Source of the DNA: Bacteroidia bacterium
GTDB lineage: Bacteria; Bacteroidota; Bacteroidia; Flavobacteriales_D; Sanyastnellaceae
Direction: 5' to 3'
Length of the DNA stretch: 64,000 bases
NCBI GenBank assembly: GCA_030427925.1
Contig: JAUICJ010000007.1
Location: 1-64,000, forward strand
Part shown: piece by piece, positions 10,151 to 22,863 of the stretch
Position numbering within the stretch: the stretch's first letter is position 1
Layout of the letters: each line of letters begins with the position of its first letter
Position numbers and translations under genes: made by a program
The notes under the pieces: model-generated
The model's input: the letters and a program-made list of their open reading frames with translations, nothing else
Database searches by the model: none
Told to the model about the DNA's origin: nothing

Positions 10151-13100
10151 ATGTTGAACAAACTGACAAAGTGTTGTGGCATCCTCGCGATGTTCGCGCT
10201 TTATTTCCTCTCAGCACCGGGCGCGTACGCCCAGTGCGAGTCGATTGATGAGTATACCCTCATCGTCGGCGGCTCAGGCTACGCTTCCGAGGTAGGCTGG
10301 CGCGTTGAAGCTCCTGACGGATCGGTCGTTGCGCAAGCAGGTGGCCAAGTCGGAGAGCAATTCACTACTTGTGCTGAAGGGTCGGGTGAAGGCACGTTTA
10401 CCTTCGACTTGGCTTCCGGAACGCAATACACGTTCGTCTTCATCGATTGCTTCGGTGACGGATGGAACGGTGGTACGGCCATCATGTACCGCACCGCGGA
10501 TACGGGCTTCGTTATGGGCTCCATCGGGGCGGGCGTTGGCTTCACCAGCGGTGAGGGAAGCCCGGCCGGTGGTCAGTTGAACTACGCGGTCACGACGTTG
10601 CCTGCTGAAGGTTGCGGTTGCACGGATGAATCGTCTTGCAACTACGATCCAGATGCCACCACGGACGACGGCTCTTGCGCCATCCCGGGTTGCATGGACG
10701 CAACGGCTTGCAACTACGACTCATGTGCCAATGAAGACGATGGTTCTTGCGCAACGGAATCCGTTGTGTGGACCATTTCGGGCACGTACATGCCGGAAGT
10801 TTCTTGGGAAATGGCGGATGCCGATGGGAACGTGATCGCCAGCGGCGGTGGCTACCCTTCCTCTTTCCCGTACCCGACCGTCTCGGAAACGATTTGCGTG
10901 AATGCAGCTTGCTACAGCTTCACTGCCATCGATTCATGGGGTGACGGATGGGATGGACCTTACAGCCTTTCCACGAATGGCGTAGCATTCTACAACGGCA
11001 GTGGCGCCTTTGGCACTTCGGAAACCGTTGATTTCTGCTTCGAGCCCGGCTGCACCGATCCGAACGCGTCGAACTACTCTTCGCTCTCTACGGAAGACGA
11101 TGGTTCTTGCCAGTACCTGGGTTGCACCGATCCCAACGATTTCGCTTACGATCCGTTCGCTACGGAAGATGACGGATCGTGCTTGGGTTGCGACCAGTCA
11201 GGCAACTTCTGCTACGGCAACTACGGCAACACCCAGCAAATCGTTTTGCAAACGGGTGTTCCAACCGGAAATGACGGGTTGTACTTCTTGATCACTTCTG
11301 GTTTGATTGAAGATTTCTGGGACCAAATCTTCATCTACGACGGATTGGAAATCAATGCAGACAACCTGCTGTTCTCGGATGGTTTCACATCGGTTACGGG
11401 TTACCTCAATTTGGCTGGAACCTTTGTTTTCGCTCCTTCTGGAACCATCACGGTGGCCATCGATTCGGACGGTTCGGGTTCGTGTGCATCGTCATCGGGC
11501 CTCGCTGCTGGTATCTCGTGGCAGGTCTCTTGCACCGTTGGTTGCATGGACACCATGGCCTGCAACTACGACGAAAATGCGGGCATTGACGACGGCTCGT
11601 GTGACTACTCATGCGTCGGTTGCATGGACACGTCGGCTGCCAACTTCGATCCCAACGCAACGATGCAAGGCGAAGGTTCTTGCGTGTTCTGCGATCCGGG
11701 AACGTTCGTGTTCAACATCGAAATGACGGACGCAGGCAACGACGGATGGGAAGGCGCTGCCTACTTCTTGACGGACTTGGCCACGGACGAAATGATTCAA
11801 GGTTCGTACGACGATGCAGCGTTGCAGCTCGGTGACGTTGCAGTGGACTTCGTTTGCATGCCGTTGGGCTGCTACACGTTCTCTGCTGGCGGTGGATCGG
11901 GCGTGGGCGAAATCGGTGTCACGTTGTCTGACCAATTCGGAACGACCTACTTCGAAGGAACGGGTGCAATCAGCACGACCAACATCGACTTCGGTTTGAC
12001 CCAATTGTGTGACTTCGAGGGCTGCACGGATCCCTACTGCTGGAACTACGACATTTCTGCAACCATTGATGACGGTTCGTGCATCTGCCCGCCGTTGAAC
12101 AACGCGGTGGAAGACGCGATTGCTTTGGAATGCGGTTCAGTCGTCAACGGAACCGTTGCCAACGCATCGGACGTTGAAGGCATCGTTGGAACGCTGTTCG
12201 GTGGTCACACCATCAACCAGGGCGGTGCATGGTACCAGTACAATGCAAGCGGCACGCAGCAAGTCTTCATCGACCTCTGCGGAACGCCGAATGCTGGTTT
12301 CGCTGCAGGTACGGAACTGAACGATTCTCAGATTCACGTCTTCGTTGAGGATGCCAATGGTGACCTCGTCCCCGTTGCGTCAAACGACGAATCGTGCTTC
12401 AGCCATGCAGGTGTTTCCATCGTCACGGACGTTGCGGAGACCTACTACATCCACGTGAGTGCTTACGGCGCTGGCGACGGTGGCCAGTTCCAGATCAGCG
12501 TGAACTGCACGGAAGCCTGCACGACGGGCACGCCGTTCAACGACGACTGCGCAGGTGCATTGCCGCAATTGAACGGCATCGCGTTCTCGGGCAGCACGTG
12601 CTGCACGAACCAAGAAGGCGCGTGGTCTGCCGGTAACGTCGACTACGGTGCGGGTGTGTTGAGCGGAGCGAGCACGTACGGTGTCTGGTTCACGTTCAAC
12701 TCGGGCGACTTCGATTCGTTCGACTTCAACTTGGTGAACGGTGACGGTGCTGCGGTCAGCTTGTCGATCTACTATGCCGCTACGAACTGTGACGAAGTTG
12801 CTTCTTCGACCGTCTTCACGGGTGGCGGCATTGCCGGTTGCAACGTTACGGGTCAGTGTGCAGGTAGCATCTCTGCCATCACGGACTTGATCCCGAACAC
12901 GGATTACTACTTCCTCGTGGGTACGACTGAACCAGGTGAGTGCGGCACGTTCAGCTTCAGCACGACGGGTGTCTACCTCGGCTGCATGGACACGGCTGCC
13001 ACGAACTACGATGCGCAAGCAACGGAGGATGATGGCTCGTGCGACTACACCGACGTGGTTCCGGACAATGACTTGTGCAACAACGCCATCACCCTGCCTT

Positions 13101-15004
13101 GCAACGGTGGTTACGAAGTGTACTCCATGGGTGGAGCTACTGAAGATGACTTCCCGGTTTGCGGCGGTGGTGACATGGATTTTGAGGGTTGCTTGACGGC
13201 TACTTTCGGTTTGTATCCTTCTGCGACCTTCACCCCATCTTGCACGGGCACGTTCCAGAACATCACGACCTGTGCTTACGCAGGTGAATACAGCAACGTC
13301 AACTTGACTGCGGGCAACACCTACACGTTCGTTTCTTCCAACCCGGATTACATGATCACGGTTGCGAACAGCACGGGTACCACGGTTTACGCAGCTGGAA
13401 TGGGCGGTGAAGTGGAGTACGTTGCTACGACGACGGAAACGGTTCGCGTTTACCGCCACACAGCAGGATGCGGCAGTGCTACGGGCTGCACCACGTTCGC
13501 TGTTTCTTGCGGTGGAACGCCTCCGGGCGGTGTTTGGTTCACGTTCGAAGGAACGGGCGAACTCCACAACATCAACACGTGCGGTTCAATCCTCGACACG
13601 CAATTGCAGCTCTTCACGGCGCCTTCTGCCACGTCTTGCGACATGTTGGAGTGCACCACGCAAATCGATGGTTCTCCAGCAGTGAGCCAAACGAGCTTCG
13701 ATGGTTGCGGATTCTTCGACGAGGACGATGCTTCTTTGAACTTCGTTTCTGAGCCGGGAGTGACCTACTTCGTGTACGTCGGAACGGACCTCAGCAACAA
13801 CGGTTCTTACCAAATCGAAATGACCTGCGAGGAAGCCATCTACGGCTGCATGATCGACATCGCTTGCAACTACAACCCGCTCGCGAACCTCGAAGACGAG
13901 TGCGACTTCACGTCATGCGCTTGCTCAGACGAGACGCAAACGGCTGTGGTCATCGAGATGTTCGACACCTTCGGTGACGGATGGTCAGGCGGCAACGACG
14001 GTTCAATGGGCGGTTACGAGATCCAAGACATGGACGGCAACGTCTACGCCTCGGGTACCCTCGAAGAAGCCCTCTACCAAGTCGACGAGGACAACTACCA
14101 AGGTGCTGAGTACGGCATCGACACGCAGTGCTTGTCTGACGGTTGCTACTTCCTCGTCTTCACGACGGCTGACATTTGGTCAGAAGAGCAAGCTTGGGCG
14201 TTGACGGTGAACGGAACGGTGGTTGCAGAAGCGTCTTACACGGCGAACGACAACTCGACGACGTTCGAGTACGCCTTCACTATTGGTGACTTCGAGTGCG
14301 GTTGCACGGACGACTTCGCTTGCAACTTCGACGGTGTGGCTCCCGACTGGATGGAGAACGGAACGTGTGAGTACGTGACGTGCGCAGGTTGCACGGATCC
14401 GGACAACTGCTTCTACGACGGTCCCGAATTCACCATCGACGACGGTTCTTGCTGCACGGAGAACTGCATCACGATCCAGATGTACGATTCATTCGGTGAC
14501 GGATGGAACGGAAACGTCTTGACGATTGCAGACCTCGACGGCAACGTCATCCAAACGGCAGGATTCAGCGCTGGATCTTCTGCGGTCGCAGTGGGTTGCT
14601 TGCCTGACGGCTGCTACACGGTTTCTTGTGGCGGTGGTTCGTTCGCTTCTGAAGTCTCTTGGGACTTGTTGGGAGTGTACGGCGGCACGCTTTCGGGTGC
14701 GGTTCAAGGTCCAACCTACTTCAGCGTAGGCGGCAACAACTGCATCGAGGGCTGCTCCATCCTCTGCGCTTGCAACTACGACGCAGCAGTGAACATCCCA
14801 ACGGATGATGTCTGTGAATTCTTCGGTTGCGGTGGTTGCACCTACCCCGGTGCAACGAACTACGACGAGACCGCTGCATCGGATGACGGTTCTTGCGAAT
14901 TCGACTTCGCGAACCCATGCCCGGCTGACTTGAACGAGGACGGCTCCGTTTCGACGGCTGACTTGCTCCAGTTCTTGGGTGCATTCGGTACGGTCTGCGA
15001 ATAA
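10151..15004 (+). CDS. Giant secreted cysteine-repeat protein with dockerin-like C-terminal tail
   Basis: A 1617-residue exported protein (signal peptide to about residue 27, ending GAYAQC). It is built from three module types. Thirteen short units of the form GC-x-D-x2-A-C-N-Y-D ... DDGSC start at about residues 153, 180, 299, 326, 463, 490, 624, 944, 1232, 1387, 1413, 1534 and 1562. Five beta domains share an F-G-D-G-W-x-G turn (about 100, 262, 527, 1273, 1447). CUB-like and PPC-like domains fill about 345-460 and 650-1230. The last 28 residues are a single calcium-loop-like DLNEDGSVSTADLL segment between two cysteines. No standard T9SS type A or B domain is seen. Codon choice looks tuned for strong expression. 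Probably a structural or adhesive surface protein. Confidence 0.85.
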   Translation: MLNKLTKCCGILAMFALYFLSAPGAYAQCESIDEYTLIVGGSGYASEVGWRVEAPDGSVVAQAGGQVGEQFTTCAEGSGEGTFTFDLASGTQYTFVFIDCFGDGWNGGTAIMYRTADTGFVMGSIGAGVGFTSGEGSPAGGQLNYAVTTLPAEGCGCTDESSCNYDPDATTDDGSCAIPGCMDATACNYDSCANEDDGSCATESVVWTISGTYMPEVSWEMADADGNVIASGGGYPSSFPYPTVSETICVNAACYSFTAIDSWGDGWDGPYSLSTNGVAFYNGSGAFGTSETVDFCFEPGCTDPNASNYSSLSTEDDGSCQYLGCTDPNDFAYDPFATEDDGSCLGCDQSGNFCYGNYGNTQQIVLQTGVPTGNDGLYFLITSGLIEDFWDQIFIYDGLEINADNLLFSDGFTSVTGYLNLAGTFVFAPSGTITVAIDSDGSGSCASSSGLAAGISWQVSCTVGCMDTMACNYDENAGIDDGSCDYSCVGCMDTSAANFDPNATMQGEGSCVFCDPGTFVFNIEMTDAGNDGWEGAAYFLTDLATDEMIQGSYDDAALQLGDVAVDFVCMPLGCYTFSAGGGSGVGEIGVTLSDQFGTTYFEGTGAISTTNIDFGLTQLCDFEGCTDPYCWNYDISATIDDGSCICPPLNNAVEDAIALECGSVVNGTVANASDVEGIVGTLFGGHTINQGGAWYQYNASGTQQVFIDLCGTPNAGFAAGTELNDSQIHVFVEDANGDLVPVASNDESCFSHAGVSIVTDVAETYYIHVSAYGAGDGGQFQISVNCTEACTTGTPFNDDCAGALPQLNGIAFSGSTCCTNQEGAWSAGNVDYGAGVLSGASTYGVWFTFNSGDFDSFDFNLVNGDGAAVSLSIYYAATNCDEVASSTVFTGGGIAGCNVTGQCAGSISAITDLIPNTDYYFLVGTTEPGECGTFSFSTTGVYLGCMDTAATNYDAQATEDDGSCDYTDVVPDNDLCNNAITLPCNGGYEVYSMGGATEDDFPVCGGGDMDFEGCLTATFGLYPSATFTPSCTGTFQNITTCAYAGEYSNVNLTAGNTYTFVSSNPDYMITVANSTGTTVYAAGMGGEVEYVATTTETVRVYRHTAGCGSATGCTTFAVSCGGTPPGGVWFTFEGTGELHNINTCGSILDTQLQLFTAPSATSCDMLECTTQIDGSPAVSQTSFDGCGFFDEDDASLNFVSEPGVTYFVYVGTDLSNNGSYQIEMTCEEAIYGCMIDIACNYNPLANLEDECDFTSCACSDETQTAVVIEMFDTFGDGWSGGNDGSMGGYEIQDMDGNVYASGTLEEALYQVDEDNYQGAEYGIDTQCLSDGCYFLVFTTADIWSEEQAWALTVNGTVVAEASYTANDNSTTFEYAFTIGDFECGCTDDFACNFDGVAPDWMENGTCEYVTCAGCTDPDNCFYDGPEFTIDDGSCCTENCITIQMYDSFGDGWNGNVLTIADLDGNVIQTAGFSAGSSAVAVGCLPDGCYTVSCGGGSFASEVSWDLLGVYGGTLSGAVQGPTYFSVGGNNCIEGCSILCACNYDAAVNIPTDDVCEFFGCGGCTYPGATNYDETAASDDGSCEFDFANPCPADLNEDGSVSTADLLQFLGAFGTVCE

Positions 15005-15024
15005 GCGCACCGACTTTGAAATGG

Positions 15025-15052
15025 AAAGGGCCGCTCCTCGGAGCGGCCCTTT
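15025..15052 (+). terminator. Rho-independent terminator of the cysteine-repeat protein gene
   Basis: AAAGGGCCGCTC and GAGCGGCCCTTT form a 12-bp stem with a 4-nt CTCG loop, followed by more T residues, 20 nt after the stop codon. Confidence 0.92.
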
Positions 15053-15065
15053 TTTATTGGCCATG

Positions 15066-15090
15066 AAAAAGGCGGGCTCGTGCCCGCCTT
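15066..15090 (-). terminator. Terminator of the nitroreductase gene
   Basis: On the minus strand GGCGGGC and GCCCGCC pair around a 4-nt loop and are followed by TTTTT, 20 nt after the nitroreductase stop. With the terminator at 15025-15052 it insulates two convergent genes. Confidence 0.85.
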
Positions 15091-15109
15091 CTTCGTGCCG
15101 AATCTGAAA

Positions 15110-15694
15110 TCAGTCTTCGTGCCAAGTGGTTACGTATTCCAAGGGCTTTCGGTGGCTGATGGGCCAGTCGCCTTCGGGGTACCCGAGGTAGAACAGGCCG
15201 AGGAGTTTGCCCTGTTCACTCAGGCCGACGAAATCGCGGACTTCTGGGCGGTAGATGAATCCCGGGGACGACCAAAATCCGCCGATTCCGTATGCCGTTG
15301 CAGTGAGGTGCAGGTTTTGGACGGCGCAAGCCACCGCTTCGATCTCTTCGACTTCTTTGATGCGGCCATTGGGGTCAGGTTCCATTCCGACTGCGATCAT
15401 GGCCGACACGCGTTCTCCCCGTAGTTTGAGCTTGTCGAATTTGGATTGCGAGAAGGATTCGCCAGCGAATTGCTGGTACCACTCGGAGAGCTTCGGTCCG
15501 ATGCGTTGCATGCCGTCTCCCACGTACACGGTGAAGCGCCAGGGCTGGGTCATCCCATGGGTGGGAGCCCACGTGGCGTTAGTGAGCATGAGTTCGATTT
15601 GTTCCCGATGGACTTTACGGCTTGAGAAGCGTTCGGGTTGGATGCTGCGGCGGTCGCGGATGAGGGCAGTGGCGTCGCTGAGGTTGTGTCGCAT
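15110..15694 (-). CDS. Nitroreductase-family flavoprotein
   Basis: A 194-residue cytosolic FMN-dependent oxidoreductase of the nitroreductase superfamily, nearest in look to the YdjA-type single-domain members. Seen are the N-terminal IRDRRSIQPERF (FMN-phosphate binding RRS), NATWAPTHGMTQPWRF, a central AVACAVQNLHLTATAYGIGGFW helix with a following SSPG turn, and a C-terminal LGLFYLGYPEG strand. The physiological substrate is unknown; such enzymes reduce nitro compounds, quinones or enones with NAD(P)H. It runs convergent to the cysteine-repeat gene and divergent from the SDR gene. Confidence 0.88.
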   Translation of the reverse strand: MRHNLSDATALIRDRRSIQPERFSSRKVHREQIELMLTNATWAPTHGMTQPWRFTVYVGDGMQRIGPKLSEWYQQFAGESFSQSKFDKLKLRGERVSAMIAVGMEPDPNGRIKEVEEIEAVACAVQNLHLTATAYGIGGFWSSPGFIYRPEVRDFVGLSEQGKLLGLFYLGYPEGDWPISHRKPLEYVTTWHED

Positions 15695-15705
15695 GTTTTT
15701 TGTGA

Positions 15706-15713
15706 CAAAGTTA
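15706..15713 (-). promoter_or_regulatory. -7 box TAACTTTG upstream of the nitroreductase gene
   Basis: TAACTTTG on the minus strand is an exact TAnnTTTG match and ends 11 nt before the ATG at 15694, so the leader would be only a few nucleotides. Confidence 0.5.
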
Positions 15714-15731
15714 CGGGGCGTCCGGGCGCAC

Positions 15732-15761
15732 TTGTCGTGCCTGTGGTCACCCTTACCTTCG
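15732..15761 (+). promoter_or_regulatory. Candidate promoter of the SDR gene, TTG-N19-TACCTTCG
   Basis: TTG (15732-15734) and TACCTTCG (15754-15761, one mismatch to TAnnTTTG) are 19 nt apart. The box ends 4 nt before the ATG at 15766, which predicts a leaderless mRNA. The divergent nitroreductase box overlaps the same 70-nt region. Confidence 0.5.
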
Positions 15762-15765
15762 TGGC

Positions 15766-16539
15766 ATGCATACCATCATCATCACGGGCGCGGGATCTGG
15801 AATCGGTTCTGCAGCCGCCGTAGCGTTGAGCCGCCTTCCGTCCATCCGCGTCGTGCTCATCGGTCGCAGGAGGGAGCCGTTGGAGGAGACCGCTGCGAAG
15901 TGCGAGGGGGAGGCGATCGTTCATGATCAGGACGTGGCGGATCGCGAGGCGTGGAAGGCGTTTTTGGGGAGTGAGGAGCTGGGGTTGGCGGCGTTTCCGC
16001 TCGTGGGGGTGTTTGCCAATGCGGGTGTGGGAGGACCCAACCGATTTGCGGACGGCGAGGGGGATCGCTGGGAGGAGATCATCCGCACGAACCTCACCGG
16101 GACGTACGTGACGGTGGAGTCGTGCAAGCCTTACTTGGATGCTGCTGCGTCGATTGGACCGCGGCACGTGGTGGTGACTTCTTCGGTGTTGGCGCGCTTT
16201 GGGGTGCCGGGGCAGGCGGCTTATGTGGCGAGCAAGACCGGGCTGCTGGGGTTGGTTCGGTCGTGGGCAACCGAGTGGTCGGATTCGGGGGTGCTCGTCA
16301 ACGCGATTTGTCCAGGGTGGGTGGAGACGGAAATGGCGCGCAACAGCATTCAGGCCATGGCCGATCAGTATGGACGGAGCTACGAGGAGGAACTGGGAGT
16401 TCAGTCGCAGCTTTTGCCCACGGGCCGCATCAGCCAGCCGGAGGAGGTGGCAGAGCTCGTGGTTTGGCTGATGAGCGGTGCGCAGCGTTCCATGACCGGT
16501 CAAGGAATAGATATAAACAACGGTTCCTACATGGTTTGA
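15766..16539 (+). CDS. Short-chain dehydrogenase/reductase
   Basis: A 257-residue classical SDR oxidoreductase. The Rossmann nucleotide-binding motif TGAGSGIGSA (about 8-17) is followed by the NAG-type strand FANAGVGG, the catalytic VVTSSVLARFG serine, YVASK (Tyr and Lys of the active site) and ICPGWVETEM. An Arg-Arg pair after the second strand (IGRRRE) favours NADP(H). The C-terminal GQGIDINNGSYMV is typical of the family. The substrate is unknown. It shares its upstream region with the divergent nitroreductase gene, so the two may be expressed together. Confidence 0.9.
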   Translation: MHTIIITGAGSGIGSAAAVALSRLPSIRVVLIGRRREPLEETAAKCEGEAIVHDQDVADREAWKAFLGSEELGLAAFPLVGVFANAGVGGPNRFADGEGDRWEEIIRTNLTGTYVTVESCKPYLDAAASIGPRHVVVTSSVLARFGVPGQAAYVASKTGLLGLVRSWATEWSDSGVLVNAICPGWVETEMARNSIQAMADQYGRSYEEELGVQSQLLPTGRISQPEEVAELVVWLMSGAQRSMTGQGIDINNGSYMV

Positions 16540-16609
16540 TGACGATGATTTAATATATTCGTTCTTCTGCACGGAATGCCGACACGGTGACTCAACGAGA
16601 TGAAGAGTC

Positions 16610-18361
16610 ATGGCATCAATGCGCATTTTCCTGTTTTTTTTGATGGGTTCCTTTCCAGCAATGGGGTGGGCACAATACGTCAATGTTTCGGAGGAGTTGG
16701 GGTTGTACACGGACCACACCGATGGCTACTTGGGCCTCGGGGTGAGCGTGGTGGACTTCACTGGAGACGGAATCGACGATTTGTCCTTTTGCCACCACGA
16801 TGGCATCATGCACTTTTTTGCAGGCAACGGTCAGGGAGGCTTTCAGCTGGCGAACCTGGGCATTGACAACTCGGGTGCGGACGCGAAATCCGTTTCGTGG
16901 GTGGACCTGGACAACGACGGGGACCAAGACCTCTTCATCACGAACCGGTTGGCGTCCAATCGGCTTTGGCGAAACGACGGCGAGGCGGGTTTCACGGACA
17001 TTACGGAGGATTCGGGGCTGAACACGGAGAACCGGAAGAGTTATTCGGCGTCGTTTGCGGATTACGACAACGATGGGGATTTGGACTTGTTCGTGGCGAA
17101 TTACAACGCCACGATGATGGAGTTTTTCAATGAGCTGTACGCCAACAACGGGGACGGTACGTTCACGGAAACCACGTTCACGGCGGGAATGGGACAAGAC
17201 ATCAAGCAGTCGTTCATCGGAGAGTGGACGGATTTCAATGAAGACGGCCTCCTCGATTTGTATCTGATCCGCGACCGACACGTGTACCTCAACATGTATT
17301 ACGAAAACCAGGGCGACGGCACGTTCATCGATGTGGCAGAAGACCGGGGTTTGGACCTCGGAATCAACGCGATGTGCTCGGGCATCGGCGATTACAACCG
17401 GGACGGGGCGCTGGACGTTTTCGTAACGGGTCTTCAGAATGAAAACACGTTGTTGACGAATGACGGCACGGGCAACTTCGAGGACTTGGGCTCGGAGGTC
17501 TTTGACATTTGGCACACCTGCTGGTCGGGAACGTGGGTCGACTGGGACAACGACGGCTGGCAGGAGCTTCACATCGCTACGGGGACCTCGATGTATACGG
17601 ACTACCCGGACATCCTCACCGACATCGAGCAGATTCCGGATTCGATGTTTGCGTTCGTTGACGGGGAGTGGAGTGCCATTGAGAATTCCGGACTCTCTGC
17701 CGAACACGCGTTCAGCGTTGCGGCGACGGACCTGAACGGGGACGGGTTTCAGGACTTGGTGTCGTGCCCCATCGGGGGGGAGGCGTCGGTTTATTTTGCC
17801 ACGCCCAACGACAACCACTACCTCCGGATCAAGGGAGAAGGGGTGGTCTCCAACCGGGACGCCATCGGGGTGAAGTTCCGGCTGTATTTGGACGGGGATG
17901 TGCTGTACCGCCTGTCGAAAAGCGGGGAGTCGTATTTGACGCAAGGTAGCCGGTGGCAGCATTTCGGCTTGGGAGCGGCAGAGGTGGCGGATTCCCTTGT
18001 GGTCACGTGGCCGACCGGTCAATCCGATGTCTTTTATAACCTGCCGGCGAACAGTTCGCTGATCATCCAGGAGGGAAGTTCGGAATGGATTTGCTTCGAG
18101 GGCCCGTGCGATGCGGCCTCCACTTCGGGGTGCACGTATGAGGCGGCATTGAATTTCAGCCCATTGGCGCTCGCGGATGACGGATCGTGTGTCTTCGGGG
18201 CCACCCCGATTTCGTGTGGTGAAGGGACCATTTGGGATGCAGAGACGTCCACGTGCATCCCCAACGATGCCTGCCCCGCCGACGTGAACGGGGACAACTT
18301 CGTGGGCATCGCCGACCTCCTCGATTTGCTCGAGTCCTTTGCGACCGCTTGTCCAGAATGA
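16610..18361 (+). CDS. Secreted FG-GAP/ASPIC-UnbV protein with dockerin-like C-terminal tail
   Basis: A 583-residue exported protein (signal peptide to about residue 23, MGWAQ). Seven or more FG-GAP/VCBS calcium repeats (for example DLDNDGDQDLF, DYDNDGDLDLF, DFNEDGLLDLY, DLNGDGFQDLV) suggest an integrin-like propeller. An ASPIC/UnbV domain follows at about 415-495 (HYLRIKGEG, SGESYLTQGSRW, HFGLG, VTWPTG). Next comes one GCTYEAALNFS...DDGSC unit like those of the 1617-residue protein. The last 29 residues (from about 555) are the same cysteine-flanked dockerin-like tail. An ATG at 16619 is an alternative start. It ends 1 nt from the convergent gene on the minus strand. Confidence 0.85.
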   Translation: MASMRIFLFFLMGSFPAMGWAQYVNVSEELGLYTDHTDGYLGLGVSVVDFTGDGIDDLSFCHHDGIMHFFAGNGQGGFQLANLGIDNSGADAKSVSWVDLDNDGDQDLFITNRLASNRLWRNDGEAGFTDITEDSGLNTENRKSYSASFADYDNDGDLDLFVANYNATMMEFFNELYANNGDGTFTETTFTAGMGQDIKQSFIGEWTDFNEDGLLDLYLIRDRHVYLNMYYENQGDGTFIDVAEDRGLDLGINAMCSGIGDYNRDGALDVFVTGLQNENTLLTNDGTGNFEDLGSEVFDIWHTCWSGTWVDWDNDGWQELHIATGTSMYTDYPDILTDIEQIPDSMFAFVDGEWSAIENSGLSAEHAFSVAATDLNGDGFQDLVSCPIGGEASVYFATPNDNHYLRIKGEGVVSNRDAIGVKFRLYLDGDVLYRLSKSGESYLTQGSRWQHFGLGAAEVADSLVVTWPTGQSDVFYNLPANSSLIIQEGSSEWICFEGPCDAASTSGCTYEAALNFSPLALADDGSCVFGATPISCGEGTIWDAETSTCIPNDACPADVNGDNFVGIADLLDLLESFATACPE

Positions 18362-21189: not shown

Positions 21190-22863
21190 TCAGTCGACTT
21201 GATCGGAGAGGAATCCGTTGGGGGTGAAGGTCGTGAACGTATTGCCTTCCTCGTCTTCTTCGGCGCGTAGGGTCAAGTTGGAGAGGGTCCGCGCATGGGA
21301 TGGGGGCACATCGTCAAGTTGAATTTGACGGCGGCGGTAGGCGGGCTCGTCTTCGAGGGCCTTCAATTCACCAGGCGTCTTCAGTCGCTTGTTGAGTGCA
21401 GCCAAACGCCGTGTGCGGTCCATTTGACGTTCCTGCGTGTCCGTTGCTGGCTGGTGCGCCCGCGCATCGGATGCATCGTTGTTCACGTGGTGGATGATGA
21501 ACTGGGTGGTGTCGCTCGGAAGCTCATTCACAGGTTCCGAAGGCGGTGCCGGGTGGAACTCATCTTCCTCGGGCTCCTCCATGTTGAGGGTCAGGCGAAC
21601 GGTGGTATCCGACGGGCTTTCCACTTCAGGTGCTGAGAACAGGGTCGGGGTTTCCTTCGGAGCGGGTGCACTTGGGATTTCCTTCAATTCCCAATTCAAT
21701 GCGTTGTCCTCATCCGGGCGCGTGACCGGGGGTTGCGGCGTTTCCCCCATGGCCGCGCGATTCAATGGAGCATTCCATTCGTGCAGGCGCTCCTGCTGTT
21801 GCGGTTGGGGCGCCGGTGCGGGTGCGGCCGGTTCTGCCTGCGCTTGGGGCGGCATGCCGCTTCCGAGCCAATGCTTCGTCTCCTCCTTCGGCAGGTCGCC
21901 GTCATCGAGGCCTTGGAATCCGGTGGCAATGACCGTCACCGAGATGTCCTCTCCGAGGTTGGCGTCGATGCCATAGCCCCAAATGACTTCCGCGCTTTGG
22001 CCAGCAGCATCCTGGATGTAATCGGTGATTTCCATGGCCTCGTCCAGCAGGATTTCGTCCTTGCTGAACGTGATGTTGAGCAGCACATAGCGCGCTCCCG
22101 TGATGTCGTGGTCGTTCAGCAACGGCGATTCGAGTGCCTCGCGGACCGCCTTTTCGGCCCGGCCTTCGCCAGAAGCTTTTCCGGAACCCATGATGGCCCG
22201 GCCGGATTCGCGCATGACCGTGTTGACGTCGTTCATGTCGACGTTGATTTCGCCCGTCAACGTGATGACTTCGGCAATTCCTTTCGCCGCCGTGCACAGC
22301 ACCTCGTCCGCATTCGTGAACGCCTCCCGGATGGTCAAACCGCTGTACAACTCGCGCAACTTGTCGTTGCGGATGATGAGCAGGGTATCGACCGCGTTCC
22401 GCATTTCTTCGAGGCCCATCTTCGCTTGGTCCGAACGCCGGCGCCCTTCAAACTTGAACGGAATGGTGACGATGCCCACCGTCAAGATGCCCAATTCTTT
22501 CGCGGCTTTCGCGATGATGGGAGCCGCTCCGGTCCCCGTTCCGCCGCCCATGCCTGCCGTAACGAACACCATGCGGGTGCCTTGGTTGAGCAGGTCCTTG
22601 ATTTCGTCGATGCTCTCGATGGCCGCGTTTCGGCCGACTTCGGGCTGCGATCCTGCCCCTTGACCTTCGGTCAGGGTTTTACCGAGCTGAATTTTCTGTT
22701 CGACCGGGCTCGCGTCGAGGGCTTGCGCGTCCGTGTTGCACACGATGAAGTCCACGCCTTGGATGCCGCGTTCGTGCATCGTGTTCACGGCGTTGGATCC
22801 TCCGCCACCGACTCCGATGACCTTGATGGGGTTTTGTGAAATGCTCATGTTCGTTGGATTCAT
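21190..22863 (-). CDS. ftsZ: Cell division GTPase FtsZ
   Basis: FtsZ is the tubulin homologue that polymerises into the division ring at mid-cell. The GTPase core (about 1-325) has IKVIGVGGGGSNAVN, the tubulin signature GMGGGTGTGAAP and the synergy-loop region NVDMNDVNTVM. A long Pro/Gln/Glu-rich linker (about 330-530) follows. The C-terminal tail TPNGFLSDQVD fits the Bacteroidota type that recruits FtsA, rather than the proteobacterial IPAFLR type. At 557 residues the protein is longer than E. coli FtsZ because of the linker. The ATG overlaps the ftsA stop codon (ATGA); an in-frame ATG at 22848 is an alternative start. Confidence 0.97.
   Translation of the reverse strand: MNPTNMSISQNPIKVIGVGGGGSNAVNTMHERGIQGVDFIVCNTDAQALDASPVEQKIQLGKTLTEGQGAGSQPEVGRNAAIESIDEIKDLLNQGTRMVFVTAGMGGGTGTGAAPIIAKAAKELGILTVGIVTIPFKFEGRRRSDQAKMGLEEMRNAVDTLLIIRNDKLRELYSGLTIREAFTNADEVLCTAAKGIAEVITLTGEINVDMNDVNTVMRESGRAIMGSGKASGEGRAEKAVREALESPLLNDHDITGARYVLLNITFSKDEILLDEAMEITDYIQDAAGQSAEVIWGYGIDANLGEDISVTVIATGFQGLDDGDLPKEETKHWLGSGMPPQAQAEPAAPAPAPQPQQQERLHEWNAPLNRAAMGETPQPPVTRPDEDNALNWELKEIPSAPAPKETPTLFSAPEVESPSDTTVRLTLNMEEPEEDEFHPAPPSEPVNELPSDTTQFIIHHVNNDASDARAHQPATDTQERQMDRTRRLAALNKRLKTPGELKALEDEPAYRRRQIQLDDVPPSHARTLSNLTLRAEEDEEGNTFTTFTPNGFLSDQVD

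Follow-up and report, generated by a model that had tools for sequence, protein, structure and literature searches.

We analysed a window of 64,000 nucleotides (positions 1 to 64,000 of the forward strand of contig JAUICJ010000007.1, GenBank assembly GCA_030427925.1), which comes from a Bacteroidia bacterium of the family Sanyastnellaceae, and studied a short C-terminal tail that is shared by two of its large secreted proteins. The tail combines a single cysteine-flanked, dockerin-type EF loop with a following helix and is termed GC tail here. The two proteins, 1617 and 583 amino acids long, are encoded by open reading frames (ORFs) at 10151-15004 and 16610-18361, and the features of interest are the following:

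10151..15004, + strand: large secreted, Cys-rich protein of 1617 amino acids with a signal-peptide-like start (Gln after AYA), nine DDGSC units and the GC tail at its end
14825..14896, + strand: last DDGSC cysteine unit (GCGGCTYPGATNYDETAASDDGSC) ahead of tail 1
14918..14998, + strand: tail 1, a single Cys-flanked dockerin-type EF loop plus helix (NF041540, 21.8 bits, cut-off 29)
16610..18361, + strand: secreted FG-GAP/ASPIC protein of 583 amino acids with a signal-peptide-like start (Gln after GWA) and the GC tail at its end
18128..18190, + strand: DDGSC cysteine unit ahead of tail 2
18215..18256, + strand: CGEGTIWDAETSTC unit, between the DDGSC unit and tail 2
18272..18352, + strand: tail 2, a single Cys-flanked dockerin-type EF loop plus helix (NF041540, 16.4 bits, cut-off 29)

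Tail 1 reads CPADLNEDGSVSTADLLQFLGAFGTVC and is followed by E, which places its last cysteine one residue from the C-terminus. Tail 2 reads CPADVNGDNFVGIADLLDLLESFATAC and is followed by PE, with the last cysteine two residues from the end. The two tails are 56% identical over 27 gap-free columns, which bears out the original prediction that the proteins share a C-terminal tail and can be extended to about 45 proteins, as described below. Both proteins had also been said to have signal peptides and a DDGSC unit ahead of the tail. A crude script indeed finds signal-peptide-like starts with Gln after the likely cleavage site in both, and the two units lie at the positions listed above. Cys-rich units ending in DDGSC number nine in the 1617-residue protein (10610-14896) and one in the 583-residue protein, and no Pfam or NCBIfam model matches these regions of either protein above its cut-off. 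Profile scans with the same two collections detect no type A or type B domain of the type IX secretion system (T9SS) at the tail of either protein, as had been predicted; the only trace is a match of Pfam Por_Secre_tail in the 1617-residue protein, which is below threshold (16.6 bits, cut-off 27) and confined to the internal residues 1290-1340. The 583-residue protein matches the Pfam families FG-GAP_3 (140.6 bits) and UnbV_ASPIC (49.1 bits). Searching it against genome contigs gave five distant matches, and searches of plasmid records gave two weak records at most.

To follow the tail through the genome of the window (G000; 2.95 Mb, 51 contigs, 99.5% complete), tail 1 was used as the query at an E-value of at most 10, the stretches around all matches were fetched and each frame was traced to its stop. 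The search recovered 65 loop matches in 51 ORFs, tail 2 being among them (E 1.2e-4). In 45 of the 51 ORFs the last match lies 0-7 residues from the stop. An equally frequent occurrence in the middle of proteins, which the original prediction had named as evidence against it, is not seen, since only six of the 51 ORFs carry the loop internally, four of them without and two with flanking cysteines (the latter on contigs C11 and C14). The four Cys-less internal loops are found 91 to 750 residues from the protein end (C30:66810, C30:67674, C36:337289 and C36:338703; L066, L070). Among the 45 terminal tails, 31 have one loop match and 14 have two, a count that would miss a degenerate first loop. 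Two-match tails are mostly tandem, the exception being L035, whose second match lies 282 residues off. Cysteines flank the loop on both sides in 38 of the 45 tails, and the majority consensus of the 45 C-termini also contains a DDGSC-type Cys unit ahead of the tail.

Signal-peptide-like starts were assigned to 43 of the 45 tail proteins and a small-x-small-Gln site, with Gln at +1, to 33; both numbers come from the crude script, run without a control, which picks the best start anywhere in the first 500 residues of the frame and leaves L037 and L058 doubtful. One of the two ORFs without such a start, L059, is cut off by the end of its contig. Type I signal peptidase substrates of Bacteroidota usually have Gln at +1. 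In a Pfam scan of 20 tail proteins, six had no match at all, and the matches found include enzymes of kinds that are typically secreted (reprolysin, M43 peptidase, GH16, endonuclease I together with a lamin-tail domain (LTD) and a BD-FAE esterase) as well as FG-GAP/ASPIC and MopE-type domains. The tail is a feature of about 45 proteins of otherwise unrelated architecture in this genome, beyond chance, and the proposal that a dockerin-like loop at the extreme C-terminus of such proteins behaves like a tag is supported.

The last loops of these 45 proteins were compared position by position, in a count that retains one misaligned row (L035). Asp occupies loop position 1 in 44 and position 12 in 43 of them; position 3 is Asn or Asp in 38, position 5 is Asp in 37 and Asn in five more (42 together), and position 6 is Gly in 36. 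The helix after the loop is equally regular. Three of its positions are each kept in 42 loops, namely 16 (Phe or Leu), 17 (Leu) and 20 (Phe or Tyr); Leu or Met stands at position 13 in 41 loops, Leu at 14 in 38 and Gly at 21 in 36. The tails thereby have the calcium ligand pattern of Pfam PF00404 (Dockerin_1), namely Asp1, Asn/Asp3, Asp5 and Asp12. Judged by this pattern the loop is of the dockerin calcium type and probably binds calcium. The helix residues are dispensable for calcium and yet conserved on unrelated proteins, a constancy that would be explained by a receptor or binding partner common to these proteins.

Kinship to dockerins is also indicated by profile comparisons. A profile of 27 single loops, searched against solved structures, finds dockerins first (2y3n_B, E 3.4e-8) and calmodulins among the weaker matches, and a two-loop profile aligns across both loops of dockerin 2y3n_B (E 7.9e-9). 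PF00404 itself gives 15.6 bits for the 30-residue tail 1 (gathering cut-off 22.9), and tail 2 is not among its matches. The sole family that matches either window tail, taken as 30-32 residues, is NCBIfam NF041540 (dockerin_GC, 'GC-type dockerin'). Both scores are below its cut-off, and each match spans just one of the two halves of the model. Some tandem tails in other parts of the genome do exceed the cut-off, two of them among the matches listed (30.7 and 30.1 bits), and at E 0.1 the model matches 19 of the 45 tail C-termini. Its two loop-helix repeats are not present in the window tails, which have one loop each; its C-terminal placement, as read from the family name and the genome-wide pattern, is shared by the tail in 45 of 51 ORFs. 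The module is already catalogued under this accession, and the window tails appear to be single-loop versions of it, i.e. half-dockerins. The accessible portions of the literature searched contain neither the term 'GC-type dockerin' nor a report of genome-wide single-loop use or of type A domains in the tail's place.

The distribution of the loop was determined in 40 genomes, 25 of the window's family (its own included) and 15 others of the order, using the single-loop profile at E 0.01. The numbers are counts of loops, not of proven tails, and are lower bounds for G007, G010 and G012, which have more than 150 candidates each. Loops occur in all 25 members of the family: 17 have 20 to 117 of them (termed tail-rich) and eight have 1 to 11 (tail-poor). 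Outside the family, four of the 15 genomes have one loop each. The position of the loop in relatives was checked on fetched loci, and four single loci of G011, G014 and G017 end in the tail. In a phylum-wide sample of 395 genomes, the loop profile at E 1e-5 matches four (two of the window's family, G032 of the same order and, weakly, G101) and NF041540 at E 1e-4 matches three, with at most 21 and 14 candidates, respectively, scored per genome in the genomes shown. One NF041540 match, G335, was rejected as a tail carrier, as its loops are internal, lack the cysteines and precede a type A-like end. Judged by these 395 genomes, the tail is characteristic of a single Bacteroidota family. GC-type dockerins are common in Planctomycetota, which are not known to have a T9SS; this would speak against a purely T9SS signal.

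The tail might have turned out to be an ordinary type A or B domain. However, neither TIGR04183 (type A) nor TIGR04131 (type B) matches any of the 45 tail C-termini at E 0.1, and NF033708 (type C) is absent among the ten families that match them at this threshold. The genome of the window contains 58 type A matches and a T9SS cluster with PorU (1036 bits), PorV (434 bits), a PorP-family protein (239.5 bits) and a GldJ match just below its cut-off (436.7 bits, cut-off 458.2). Across the sample, type A domains are found in 39 of the 40 genomes and a PorV/PorQ-family protein in all 40. The expected restriction of the tail to T9SS-positive genomes holds in that all 29 loop-bearing genomes have such a protein; it says little, because the other 11 have one too. 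A large GC-tailed protein is encoded about 12-16 kb from porU-porV in L169 (G012), L170 (G003), L171 (G006) and L174 (G014), and none was flagged in the corresponding stretches of G000, G004, G008, G011 and G020; these stretches were picked after the closeness had been noticed.

Two enzyme families allow the ends of homologous proteins to be compared. Endonuclease I has 34 matches in 30 of the 40 genomes, and 30 of these matches (one per genome) were examined. Eleven of these loci end in the GC tail, all of them in tail-rich members of the window's family. The type A profile TIGR04183 matches 17 of the 19 non-GC C-termini and none of the 11 GC-tailed ones, and NF052644, the NCBIfam family of T9SS-dependent surface endonucleases, matches six of the 19. 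In a tree of the catalytic domain, the endonuclease of G031, which ends in a type A domain, nests within the clade of the 11 GC-tailed enzymes with a support of 97/85, and its catalytic domain is 65% identical to that of G012. G031 belongs to another family of the order and has no GC loop at E 0.01. Two changes of the tail are forced on the tree, in a count that excludes L090, which is off the contig, and L091, in which such a domain was not seen.

For reprolysin, 24 of 60 matches were examined and type A ends were judged by eye. Sixteen of the 24, including row L157, which was relabelled by eye, are GC-tailed, and all 16 are from the window's family. The catalytic domains of type A-ending reprolysins, as identified by eye, are 78% (G031), 63% (G038) and 65% (G027) identical to those of GC-tailed ones. 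Two reprolysin-like proteins of the window's family, in the tail-poor G017 and G019, match weakly and have type A ends. The tree left out L138 and L167, weak long-branch rows of this family that were scored as type A by eye. G027 has a second reprolysin (L160) whose catalytic domain shares 76% identity with that of a GC-tailed enzyme; its end is a dockerin of two loops that lacks the flanking cysteines. Some tail-bearing enzymes have close relatives with a type A domain in place of the tail, and the sequences indicate that such enzymes can have either. That the same enzyme can end in one or the other suggests that the tail substitutes for a targeting domain.

We favour, with moderate confidence, the view that the GC tail is a portable C-terminal address tag, which does the job of a type A domain via one common putative receptor. 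It builds on the loop anatomy, the C-terminal position, the copy number in the genome and the lack of type A and B domains on tail proteins, together with the exchange for type A domains just described. The tail would be a small calcium-binding half-dockerin that is probably clamped by a disulfide between the flanking cysteines. Tail proteins would pass Sec with a type I signal peptide, as their starts suggest, and the tail would then be recognised by one common partner that may sort the proteins to, or hold them at, the cell surface. In most genomes using the tag, this putative partner would be something other than a detectable cohesin. It is possible, and is put forward tentatively, that one Bacteroidota family has a second genome-wide C-terminal sorting code with its own receptor, which could be a new shuttle of the T9SS or a separate machine for surface anchoring, and that enzymes move between the two codes.

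Several observations weigh against the address tag. Two of the Cys-flanked loops are internal, lying 702 and 262 residues from the protein end, and an AlphaFold2 model of the window tail, built from a two-row alignment, is poor (mean pLDDT, the predicted local distance difference test score, of 40.8). The exchange on close relatives is seen only against other families of the order: the type A endonucleases of the window's own family belong to other gene lineages, those of G004, G008, G009, G011, G017 and G023 to one and that of G016 to another, and G009 and G016 are tail-rich and yet hold such an enzyme. Reprolysin is absent at E 1e-6 in six of the 25 family members, five of them tail-poor. 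A trade-off between the numbers of type A domains and tails was looked for and is weak. Over the 25 genomes, the density of type A candidates per Mb falls only weakly with loops (Spearman -0.39, p 0.052), and raw counts hardly do so (Spearman -0.10, p 0.62). Finally, the candidate partners discussed below, cohesins, an extra PorV-family shuttle and PorU2, do not follow the tail.

Two alternatives, a direct T9SS signal and docking to cohesins, overlap with the address tag. In the first, the tail would join types A, B and C as a further export signal, which the translocon would recognise via a putative shuttle. The cargo classes are the same, close homologues carry type A in the tail's place, the endonucleases with other ends include members of NF052644, and every loop-bearing genome has a PorV/PorQ-family protein. 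An EF loop of 27 residues is, however, unlike the 72-position type A domain or the type B and C regions, which the accessible part of PMC10202324 gives as roughly 100 residues. The same part already describes the type C signal, and the suggested third T9SS signal type is not supported. Although T9SS is widespread in the phylum, loops are present in only four of its 395 sampled genomes, with at most 21 candidates scored in each. Tail-rich genomes also lack additional PorV/PorQ-family matches (mean 4.1 in 17 tail-rich versus 5.1 in eight tail-poor genomes, fragments included), and an extra shuttle of this family was rejected. PorU2, a putative second T9SS sortase (NF052324), was rejected as the partner as well, since it is above cut-off in seven of 17 tail-rich and two of eight tail-poor genomes. 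In total PorU2 is above cut-off in 18 of the 40 genomes, G000 not being one of them; the match in G000 is low and falls on PorU. A membrane family co-occurring with the tail, as the original prediction had envisaged, was not found in these two, neither of which follows tail richness; no unbiased family search was made. On balance, a direct T9SS signal is possible, though less probable than the address tag.

In the second alternative, tail proteins would be clipped onto cohesin scaffolds, as in the cellulosome or the proposed planctosome. The matches to the solved type I dockerin 2y3n_B speak for it, as does a protein encoded next to a GC-tailed M43 peptidase in the genome of the window:

G000 contig C45, L061:6026-7879, - strand: scaffold-like protein of 618 amino acids that combines four cohesin-like repeats with a signal-peptide-like start and a two-loop GC tail of its own

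The Pfam cohesin model scores 52.2 bits on the whole protein and 31.2, 15.8 and 13.1 bits on single repeats, the remaining one giving none. Dockerin enzymes together with a cohesin scaffold have, in addition, been published for Cloacimonadota, according to the part of PMC8542988 available. Against docking, cohesin PF00963 is found at E 0.01 in only four of the 25 family members, all of them tail-rich (four of 17; the match in G007 stays below cut-off). It is also found in three of the 15 order genomes outside the family, none of which has more than one loop. When a profile built from the four repeats was searched against the other 39 genomes, nothing reached E 0.01 and the single match had E 0.0755; diverged cohesins could be missed in such a search. 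Most tails (31 of 45) also have one loop match and no pair. A cohesin-like partner system, the other suggestion of the original prediction, was for these reasons rejected as the general explanation, barring cohesins elsewhere that have diverged beyond recognition. Cohesin docking may be possible in the window's genome alone; as an account of the tail at large it is unlikely. Less likely still is a mere structural cap, in which the loop would stabilise the ends of secreted Cys-rich proteins in water rich in calcium and would have no addressing role. In its favour, calcium loops often stabilise secreted proteins, and a DDGSC-type unit stands ahead of the tail in the consensus. Against it, the position is strictly terminal (45 of 51), the helix face is conserved across unrelated proteins, none of the 45 C-termini combines the tail with a type A or B domain, and close homologues carry a targeting domain of known type in its place.

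If the address tag is correct, its receptor is the thing to look for, by analogy with type B T9SS domains, which can pair with dedicated outer-membrane shuttles (PMC12618676, in the part accessible). We asked whether a gene family recurs beside tail genes. For this, 178 ORFs from 40 stretches were clustered, with a filter that left in some tail ORFs. The outcome was a mixed component of 14 ORFs and a single pair, and no candidate receptor emerged. The neighbours in the window are ordinary genes, namely a nitroreductase (15113-15694, - strand), a short-chain dehydrogenase (15766-16536, + strand) and FtsZ (21193-22863, - strand).

Should the tag be an address, a large and hitherto unreadable share of the secreted proteome of these bacteria would get a destination. 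The type A domains in the tail's place on close homologues make the question testable, as the same enzyme can be compared with either tail. If true, the tail would also provide a genetic tag of 27 residues, much shorter than any known T9SS domain, and could point to the partners of GC-type dockerins in genomes without a detected cohesin.

Among known systems, the planctosome proposal for the Nemodlikiaceae (PMC6461901) is alike in that it concerns non-cellulosomal dockerin proteins with peptidases. It differs in that it deals with Planctomycetes and is built on cohesin scaffolds, and the part of the source available does not mention T9SS domains. The GC tail resembles type I dockerins (PF00404, 2y3n_B) in its DxNxDGxVxxxDL loop and helix, and departs from them in being Cys-flanked (38 of 45), in having mostly one loop and in that no cohesin is found in most genomes using it. 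NF041540 is the best match of both window tails and shares their C-terminal position; it comprises two loops over 67 positions, whereas 31 of 45 tails have one match and the window tails stay under its cut-off. Finally, the tail is unlike the T9SS type A domain (TIGR04183/PF18962) in structure, with 27 residues and an EF loop in contrast to an Ig-like domain with a 72-position model that does not match it, and like it in being C-terminal, in having the same cargo and in occupying the same place on homologous enzymes.

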